This document shows positions 2,924-35,914 of a stretch of DNA of 64,000 bases, one piece after another. The notes beneath the pieces are model-generated. The model ran no database searches. It was not told the DNA's origin and saw only the letters and a list, made by a program, of their open reading frames with translations. Position numbers and translations under genes: made by a program. The stretch is from contig CALWBV010000001.1 of NCBI GenBank assembly GCA_944376205.1, positions 124,001-188,000 of the forward strand, given 5' to 3'. Within the stretch, counting starts at the first letter, position 1; each line of letters begins with the position of its first letter. Source of the stretch: an uncultured Christensenellaceae bacterium. Lineage in GTDB: Bacteria; Bacillota; Clostridia; Christensenellales; UBA3700.

Positions 2924-5494
2924 TTATTTATTGTCAGAGTCTTTTTTATCAGACTTTTTGTCATCGGCTTTTTTGATTTCGATGTCTTCGTCTTTGATTT
3001 CTTTGACTTGCGAATCCTGCGCTTTTTTATCCGCATTTTCACTCTTTTGCGCATTCGACTTGTCGTCAACGCCCTTCTTTGCAAAGGTCAATACTCCGTC
3101 TTTTTCGTCGACTTCGATACTGTCGCCTATTGCAAACTCTCCTTTAAGGATTCTTTCGCTGAGCTCGTCCTCAACCATTCTCTGCAAAGCCCTTCTCAAA
3201 GGTCTTGCGCCGTACTCTTTATTCGAACCTTTCTCCACGATAAGTTTCTTTGCATTTTCGCTTACGTCGATAATGATATTCTTTTCTTTGAGACGTTTCT
3301 TAAGCGAATCGGTCATGATAGAGATGATCTTTGACATATCCTTGTCTTCAAGCGCACGGAATATGATTATATCGTCTATACGGTTGATAAACTCGGGTTT
3401 GAGAGTTCTCTTGAGCGCTTCCATCTGCACTTCTCTCATGCGTTCATAATTATCCGCTTCTGCCTGCGTACCGAATCCGAGCGAAGGCATAGCCTTGATT
3501 TCGCTTGCGCCGATATTCGAAGTCATGATTATGATAGTATTCTTGAAGTCAACTTTTCTGCCGTGCGAATCGGTAAGAATACCGTCGTCGAGGATTTGCA
3601 AAAGTATATTGAATACTTCGGGGTGAGCTTTTTCGATTTCGTCGAACAACACTACCGAATAAGGTTTTCTTCTTACCTTTTCCGTAAGCTGACCGCCCTC
3701 GTCGAAACCTACGTAACCGGGTGCGGAACCTATAAGTTTGGATACGCTGATCTTATCCATATATTCGGACATATCCACTCTTATCATAAGGTTTTCGTCA
3801 CCGAACATGGCTTCTGCAAGTGCCTTTGACAATTCTGTCTTACCTACGCCCGTAGGTCCGAGGAATATAAACGAACCGATAGGTCTCTTGGGATCCTTGA
3901 TACCGACTCTTGCACGTCTTACGGCTCTCGCAACCGCCTCGACGGCTTCGTCCTGACCTACGACTCTCTTTTTGAGGATTTCTTCCATACCGAGAAGCTT
4001 TTCGCTTTCAGTCTGCGTGATTTTGGTAACAGGTATCTTTGTCCAGGAAGATACGATATTGGCAATATCGGTATCGTCGATAGAGAGTTCCTGCTTTGTC
4101 TTCTCCTTCGTCCAGCCGCTCTTCATGTCTTTGAGTTGTTTCTTCTTTTTGTCGAGTTCGTCGTTGAGTTCTTTAGCCTTATCGAACTCTCTCATCTTCG
4201 AATAGCTGTCGATAGCCTCGTCGAGACGTTTGATATCGTCTTCGATAGCTTTTATATCGGTAGGCATTACCGAACCGCTTATTCTCTTTCTCGAAGCTGC
4301 TTCGTCAATAAGGTCGATAGCCTTATCTGGCAAGAATCTGTCGTTGATATATCTGTCGCTCATTACAGCCGCTGCTTCGATTGCCGAATCGAGGATTTTT
4401 ACGCCGTGGTGCTCCTCGTATTTACTCTTAAGACCCTGCAAGATTACGATAGTATCTTTAACAGAAGGGGGATCTACCGCAACTGTCTGGAATCTTCTCT
4501 CGAGTGCGCTGTCCTTTTCAAAGTACTTTCTGTACTCCTCGAGCGTAGTAGCGCCTATGGTCTGCAATTCGCCTCTTGCAAGTTGAGGTTTGAGGATGTT
4601 TGCCGCATCCATACTGCCGCCCTCGCTGCTGCCTGCGCCGACAATGGTATGAATTTCGTCGATAAACAATATGGTATTGCCCTCTTTATTGAGGTATTCG
4701 AGCGCCTTTTTAAGTCTCTCCTCGAAATCGCCTCTGTATTTTGTACCTGCAAGAAGACTGGCCATATCGAGACTGAATACTTTCTTGTTTTTGAGTTGTT
4801 CGGGCACCTTGCCGTCAACGATAGCTTGCGCAAGTCCTTCTACGACTGCGCTTTTACCTACGCCGGGTTCGCCAATGAGAATAGGATTGTTTTTCTTTCT
4901 TCTAGAAAGAATTTCAATGATACGTTCGATCTCGCTGTCTCTGCCGATAACAGGGTCGAGTTTACCCTCTTTTGCTTTTTTGGTAAGATCCTCGCCGAGT
5001 CCCGTCAAAGGATTTTCCTGATCGTCATAGTTATTGCCTGACGAAGATTTTTTACCGCCGTAACTTTCGCCTTGCGCTTCACTCGTAAGCAAATCGATAG
5101 CTTTTTCACCGATTTCTTCAGGATTTATTCCCGCATGTCTCAATCCTCTGCATGCATAAGAATTACCGTCCGAAAGACAACATATGAGAAGAGCAAGCGA
5201 ATTTATCTCCTTGAAACCGAAAGTCGTACATATATTCCAAGCGTTTGCACCTGCGGCAATTACTCTTTCGCTGTATTTGAATCCCGAAGCTATTTCTCCG
5301 TTTGTAGATATGAGAAGATCGACAATACTCTCATCGACACCGAATTTTGCAAGAAGTTTGCCCGCCTTTGTTTTGGGATTCATTGCCATAGCGCAAATTA
5401 TATGCTCTGTGCCTACTATACCTCCGCTTTTTACCGCAAGATGTTGAGCGGTCTCTATAATTTTGTTACATTCGTCATCCATTCTGTTAATCAT
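2924..5494 (-). CDS. clpC: ATP-dependent Clp protease ATP-binding subunit ClpC
   Basis: Hsp100 AAA+ unfoldase that feeds substrates, including arginine-phosphorylated proteins, to ClpP. 856 residues from the chosen ATG. It has an N-terminal Clp_N repeat domain (about 1-145), a first AAA+ module with Walker A GEPGVGKS, a coiled middle (M) domain containing a UVR-like stretch (REFDKAKELNDEL), and a second AAA+ module with GPTGVGKTE. The D2-small domain follows, then a lysine/aspartate-rich tail of about 50 residues unlike compact ClpC C-termini. A GTG four codons upstream also lies in frame, but GTGAGGTG sits just before the ATG at 5494, so that start is preferred. Last gene of ctsR-mcsA-mcsB-clpC; 27 bp separate it from mcsB. 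Expected to be repressed by CtsR. Confidence 0.95.
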   Translation of the reverse strand: MINRMDDECNKIIETAQHLAVKSGGIVGTEHIICAMAMNPKTKAGKLLAKFGVDESIVDLLISTNGEIASGFKYSERVIAAGANAWNICTTFGFKEINSLALLICCLSDGNSYACRGLRHAGINPEEIGEKAIDLLTSEAQGESYGGKKSSSGNNYDDQENPLTGLGEDLTKKAKEGKLDPVIGRDSEIERIIEILSRRKKNNPILIGEPGVGKSAVVEGLAQAIVDGKVPEQLKNKKVFSLDMASLLAGTKYRGDFEERLKKALEYLNKEGNTILFIDEIHTIVGAGSSEGGSMDAANILKPQLARGELQTIGATTLEEYRKYFEKDSALERRFQTVAVDPPSVKDTIVILQGLKSKYEEHHGVKILDSAIEAAAVMSDRYINDRFLPDKAIDLIDEAASRKRISGSVMPTDIKAIEDDIKRLDEAIDSYSKMREFDKAKELNDELDKKKKQLKDMKSGWTKEKTKQELSIDDTDIANIVSSWTKIPVTKITQTESEKLLGMEEILKKRVVGQDEAVEAVARAVRRARVGIKDPKRPIGSFIFLGPTGVGKTELSKALAEAMFGDENLMIRVDMSEYMDKISVSKLIGSAPGYVGFDEGGQLTEKVRRKPYSVVLFDEIEKAHPEVFNILLQILDDGILTDSHGRKVDFKNTIIIMTSNIGASEIKAMPSLGFGTQAEADNYERMREVQMEALKRTLKPEFINRIDDIIIFRALEDKDMSKIISIMTDSLKKRLKEKNIIIDVSENAKKLIVEKGSNKEYGARPLRRALQRMVEDELSERILKGEFAIGDSIEVDEKDGVLTFAKKGVDDKSNAQKSENADKKAQDSQVKEIKDEDIEIKKADDKKSDKKDSDNK

Positions 5495-35256: not shown

Positions 35257-35266
35257 AAATTTATTT

Positions 35267-35283
35267 TACGAAAAATTTCCGTA
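35267..35283. promoter_or_regulatory. XRE operator, site 1
   Basis: TACGAAAAATTTCCGTA, 15 of 17 bases identical to site 2. It overlaps the -10 element of the repressor gene, so binding would repress the repressor. Confidence 0.65.
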
Positions 35284-35289
35284 TTTATG

Positions 35290-35318
35290 TTGACATACGA
35301 AAAATATTCGTATATACT
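35290..35318 (+). promoter_or_regulatory. Promoter of the CFI-box gene
   Basis: TTGACA (35290-35295), 17-bp spacer, TATACT (35313-35318), near consensus. The spacer is exactly operator site 2. Confidence 0.8.
35296..35312. promoter_or_regulatory. XRE operator, site 2
   Basis: TACGAAAAATATTCGTA, arms TACGAA/TTCGTA around a 5-bp centre. It fills the 17-bp promoter spacer from end to end. Its start is 29 bp from that of site 1. Confidence 0.7.
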
Positions 35319-35353
35319 TAAGTTATCAAAAATACAAAGGAGATATTATATTT

Positions 35354-35882: not shown

Positions 35883-35914
35883 AAAAAAGGACAAGTTCAA
35901 AACTTGTCCTTTTT
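35883..35914. terminator. Bidirectional terminator between CFI-box gene and glyA
   Basis: AAAAAAGGACAAGTT pairs with AACTTGTCCTTTTT with a CAA loop. T-runs occur on both strands. Confidence 0.9.

Follow-up and report, generated by a model that had tools for sequence, protein, structure and literature searches.

In the window, which is the whole stretch of 64,000 nucleotides analysed here, two small divergent genes lie between nifU-nifS-iscR and glyA-aspS, housekeeping neighbours whose order is common to the genus. One of them encodes an XRE protein made of a single HTH_3 domain (curated cut-off 23 bits), without sensor domain and with the recognition helix STSQDTVSIWE; its closest solved relatives are P22 c2, the ICEBs1 regulator (7t8i), CylR2 and SinR. 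The other, which we call the cargo gene, encodes a CFI-box protein according to the CFI-box-CTERM model (cut-off 40 bits). The features of the locus are listed in the table; its promoters and operators, as those of all the loci below, are predictions.

Features of the switch locus (positions in the window)
Feature	Position	Strand	Basis or remark
XRE repressor gene, 68 aa	35050..35256	-	ORF; Pfam HTH_3, 49.9 bits
Putative XRE -10, TAAAAT	35263..35268	-	6 nt 5' of the start codon; conserved columns in the 35-locus alignment
Predicted operator O1, TACGAAAAATTTCCGTA	35267..35283		spacer position of the XRE promoter; twin of O2
Cargo promoter -35, TTGACA	35290..35295	+	promoter match
Predicted operator O2, TACGAAAAATATTCGTA	35296..35312		exact 17-bp spacer of the cargo promoter
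Cargo promoter -10, TATACT	35313..35318	+	promoter match
Cargo SD-like AAGGAG	35337..35342	+	read from the sequence
Cargo gene, CFI-box protein, 162 aa	35354..35842	+	NF041770, 46.4 bits; alignment; AlphaFold2 model
Inverted repeat GGACAAGTT-CAA-AACTTGTCC	35889..35909		A and T runs on either side; seen in the sequence

The initial annotation had described a tiny XRE gene and a CFI-box gene separated by two near-identical 17-bp palindromes, the second of which would occupy exactly the interval between TTGACA and TATACT. All of this is found at the locus: the palindromes are identical at 15 of 17 positions, each has 7 of its 8 arm positions complementary, they are 29 bp apart, and TTGACA-17-TATACT is the best promoter match of the region (11/12). 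The first palindrome had also been said to cover the -10 of the XRE gene, which has to be corrected, as O1 overlaps the putative -10 by 2 bp and sits in the spacer position of that promoter. No -35 could be recognised for the XRE promoter, either in the sequence or in the alignment of 35 loci. When the whole 1.79-Mb genome was scanned with TACGAAN5TTCGTA, the two sites of the locus were the best matches (0 and 1 mismatch); two further places had 1 mismatch and the remainder was at background level. The inverted repeat behind the cargo gene is likely a terminator common to this gene and glyA. It has counterparts in relatives devoid of cargo, and it is absent from the list given by the terminator scan.

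We searched the 396 genomes of the order, many of which are draft assemblies, with a pattern describing O2 in its promoter, base 4 being left free as C or G, and took the reversed pattern as a control. The pattern occurs at 33 places in 31 genomes while the control occurs at 2. In the order, 19 of the 396 genomes contain an exact match; elsewhere in the phylum, 298 genomes contain none (Fisher 2e-5). With base 4 set to A or T instead, the pattern had only 2 exact matches in 392 genomes. The same geometry is recovered by a search which presupposes no operator: when an XRE profile was run against 45 genomes of the family, plus 40 further regions, nearly all the top scorers (about 90 bits and up) shared it. 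Some 35 loci thus defined have an XRE gene of 65-75 aa, an O2 which is the spacer of the cargo promoter, and a distance of 29 (rarely 30) bp between the centres of O1 and O2; the start of the XRE gene is mostly 33-34 bp from the cargo -35. The locus of the window conforms to this layout when the latter is defined by an O2 equal to the 17-bp spacer, an O1 at 29-30 bp, an XRE start within 32-36 bp of the -35 and no Shine-Dalgarno (SD) sequence. The predicted switch is conserved across the order. Outside the top scorers, several lower-scoring small XREs have other spacer palindromes, for instance TCCTACAAAATGTAGGA (L246) and TATCTCAATCTGAGATA (L230), and another locus of the window's own genome (L253) has the palindrome AAGAAGAATTCTTCTTG in the spacer, off centre. 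XRE paralogues with an SHYE helix have no such operators. A scan of genome contigs with a single protein query gave one distant locus. At L265, around position 1500, an operator of the TACAAA type lies in the spacer and the downstream gene is itself an XRE, which makes a non-divergent variant.

The half-site changes with the recognition helix. Helix QDT goes with TACGAA/G (G at base 4) in 13 cases out of 13 and QRT with TACCAA (C at base 4) in 19 out of 19, these 32 agreements not being 32 independent tests since one event on the XRE tree may account for the change from D to R. Helix ART goes with TAGCGG in both XREs which have it, and QKC with TACTAA (T at base 4) in one case (L264). Few independent changes have been sampled, as QRT forms one clade of the tree while QDT is spread over several branches. 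We take the variable residue of the switch XREs to correspond to Gln29 of the 434 repressor, the residue by which that protein recognises base pair 2 of ACAA. Base 4 of the operator tracks the residue at this position: D with G, R with C, K with T. It is chemically sensible that Arg reads the G, and Asp the C, of the opposite strand. The equivalent residue of the 933W repressor is a lysine, which in the model of that protein touches the guanine of base pair 2 (PMC3317979). The switch of the initial annotation, with an operator equal to the promoter spacer, thus receives support from the relatives, in which the palindromes are kept and their sequence tracks the recognition helix. The 17-bp motif which was to be found in related genomes is recovered in part: the geometry of the predicted operators is constant across helix classes, their sequence is constant only within a class.

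None of the 39 switch XRE genes has an SD, which is present in 25 of 53 other XRE genes of the same set of loci (Fisher 4e-8). In the alignment of 35 loci the interval between the cargo -35 and the XRE start codon hardly varies, and this codon follows the conserved TAAAAT by 6-7 nt. The XRE mRNA is likely leaderless, because this would explain both the missing SD and the constant position of the start. There is a precedent in the controller (C) proteins of restriction-modification systems, which are also short autoregulators reduced to an HTH and whose transcripts are commonly leaderless (PMC4824078). C proteins act as activators and are cotranscribed with the endonuclease, whereas the cargo of the present switch is divergent, and no restriction or methylase gene was found among the cargo genes or the neighbours.

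A relative of the CFI-box protein is encoded in 33 of the 396 genomes of the order, and in many of the closer relatives a divergent XRE gene adjoins it. Eight CFI-box loci (the window, L021, L024, L025, L028, L029, L030 and L032) have an identical layout, with O2 filling the spacer and O1 29 bp away, while the half-sites vary between TACGAA, TACCAA and TAGCGG. Most places found by the pattern search, however, precede genes of other kinds. In the sampled loci the cargo consists of CFI-box proteins, lipoproteins, leucine-rich surface proteins, a bacterial PH protein, an SGNH hydrolase, zinc-ribbon membrane proteins and a family of proteins of 92-96 aa. Hence we rejected an exclusive XRE/CFI-box pair; the dedicated pair of the initial annotation was too narrow a description, all the more so as G008, G016 and G009 keep the XRE switch without any cargo. 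The family of 92-96 aa is a recurrent cargo (L201, L202, L082, L203, L264); its members end in ..FGLAIGQEVFGKKFD or similar, and it has only a weak, sub-threshold Pfam match.

The history of the locus was followed in the genus. The site is empty, with no XRE at the locus, in G010, G003, G006, G002 and G014. In G008 and G016 (XRE 94-96% identical) and in G009 (60%), the same place has kept the promoter, the two operators and the XRE gene, followed by a stretch without CFI-box gene or any other ORF up to the common terminator-like repeat. In G039, which belongs to another genus, an XRE 87% identical and a CFI-box protein 75% identical are encoded at an unrelated place. This means that the unit has been gained, lost or moved, and that the switch can persist without cargo. 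The cargo-less copies have no Rfam match and no convincing CFI-box remnants; the region 3' of the switch is less conserved than its surroundings between G008 and G016, which gives no sign of a conserved RNA. Intact switches with no ORF before the terminator-like repeat can be seen at L079 (1530-1850) and L080 (1530-1735). At the expected start of the transcript a 9-bp hairpin is present in G008; it is weaker in G016. In G028 (L076, from 1530) only about 70 nt follow the switch promoter before a strong hairpin and a T run, which resembles a small RNA.

We consider it highly probable that these loci contain a self-contained, negatively autoregulated XRE switch of the phage-repressor kind, usable as a portable module, of which the CFI-box gene is one cargo among several. 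An XRE dimer would bind O2 between the -35 and the -10 of the cargo promoter and thereby block RNA polymerase; XRE would also bind O1 at its own promoter and limit its own synthesis, probably from a leaderless mRNA. As the protein has no sensor domain, its release from the operators must come from outside, and could occur by dilution, proteolysis, an antirepressor or titration. The 29-bp spacing is not a whole number of helical turns, so that side-by-side cooperativity of the 434 type is not obvious; it may be constant because the two promoters fix it. In G008, G016 and G009 the operators persist with no cargo for them to control, which counts against this reading of the switch. A wider proposal, which we put forward only tentatively and would sooner doubt than accept, is that a single regulatory cassette, composed of the XRE gene, O1, O2 and the cargo promoter, moves or is maintained as a whole and captures unrelated genes, each with a private orthogonal repressor, that a short code in the recognition helix lets operator specificity diversify, and that such a cassette can survive the loss of its cargo or direct the synthesis of a non-coding RNA.

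The XRE promoter, which keeps a -10 (TAAAAT) without a -35, would also suit a bistable switch resembling lambda PRM, in which XRE at O2 represses the cargo and activates its own promoter, O1 serving as negative feedback at high level. We find this improbable. Upstream of the expected XRE start, the centre of O2 lies at about 50 bp, a greater distance than is usual for a class II activator, and several members have an extended TGn -10, able to dispense with a -35.

The sporadic distribution and the position of an XRE gene beside a small gene without assigned function recall a toxin-antitoxin or defence pair in which the effector would be the CFI-box protein, and the XRE protein does match generic HTH models of defence regulators. 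The genes are nevertheless divergent and not in one operon, no toxin family is found at the locus, and the cargo is exchanged, and can be missing from loci that retain the XRE gene. We rejected this very doubtful reading, as the CFI-box protein has no PADLOC, PHROG or Pfam match. No more credible is a remnant prophage lysis-lysogeny (CI/Cro) switch, the CFI-box gene then being a phage gene. The switches of temperate phages (P22 c2, 434, lactic phage repressors) have the same HTH fold and operator logic: the repressor is divergent from the controlled promoter, operators are shared and palindromes overlap the promoter. Phage repressors are the closest to the XRE protein, some phage switches (L268, L271) have a palindrome over the spacer of a divergent promoter, and CFI-box relatives occur in viral contigs. 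But the present switch has neither Cro-like partner nor C-terminal oligomerisation domain nor phage genes, with no Cro-like HTH or phage early gene under the controlled promoter of the locus, and it differs further by its fixed 29-bp layout of two operators, its probable leaderless repressor and its unrelated cargo. Six relatives from phages and plasmids were examined; in several of them an SD-like stretch lies 5' of the repressor gene and the intergenic region is longer. We rejected the prophage remnant on account of the housekeeping neighbours, none of them a phage gene, and of the XRE gene, which is found near none of the 80 viral CFI-box loci listed. Finally, a chance origin of the palindromes in an AT-rich promoter is practically negligible and was rejected: although weak palindromes are frequent in AT-rich intergenic DNA (the window has 49 17-mers with 7/8 or better, the shuffles 30), neither a promoter with a palindromic 17-bp spacer nor a pair of twin palindromes, of which the window has one each, arose when the whole window was shuffled 60 times by dinucleotides, and the features are conserved in relatives across the order with an operator sequence dependent on the helix.

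Among other known regulators, CylR2 of Enterococcus faecalis is likewise a stand-alone HTH repressor, of 66 aa, with a sequence match to the XRE profile. Its single target is a toxin operon, whose promoter contains the inverted repeat that it binds, and it works with a membrane partner, CylR1; we found no report of a portable module for CylR2 in the literature. Regulators of the ImmR/Rco type (ICEBs1, pLS20) are related HTH proteins with divergent autoregulated promoters (PMC4207663), but their systems are larger and include an antirepressor protease or DNA looping, nothing of which was seen here. Our literature search gave no paper describing the layout of the switch and none naming "CFI-box" or a CFI motif. 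What started as one odd promoter has grown into some 35 comparable switches, which share a fixed layout and use operators of at least four types. This family offers a natural data set for the operator specificity of HTH proteins, in which the residue at the 434 Gln29 position can be set against base 4, and a set of possibly orthogonal repressor-promoter pairs, compact enough to hold in less than 400 bp. The shared control is an entry to genes of unknown function, the CFI-box genes and others.

The CFI-box protein of the window has an N-terminal Cys motif (C4, C7, C23, C36) and a helical CFI-box domain, and its relatives (alignment A1) conserve C59-x2-TSAC, DDC-E-LT-LR and YY--AP-IV. Its AlphaFold2 model is of fair confidence (pLDDT 81); no PDB fold matched it below E 1, there was no sequence match, and no HTH or phage family matched the protein. 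CFI-box relatives are common in viral contigs (at least 80 loci, L085-L164). A second, distant CFI-box gene of 282 aa is present at L022 (G000:C4:8000-16000, 3409-4574) and L023 (G016:C3, 3754-4917), with a divergent XRE gene, a TTGACA-17-TATAAT promoter and, in both genomes, a perfect 16-bp palindrome TAGCACCATGGTGCTA just 3' of the promoter. Another layout is seen at L027 around 1974-2034, where a perfect 24-bp palindrome ATTTGCACCTATATAGGTGCAAAT comes just after the promoter of a CFI-box gene and a half-site related to it lies beside the divergent XRE gene. In G012 (L021, 3407-4269), one switch is followed by a row of three genes, two for CFI-box proteins and one for a Cys-rich protein of 84 aa, and the Cys motif is repeated within these proteins.
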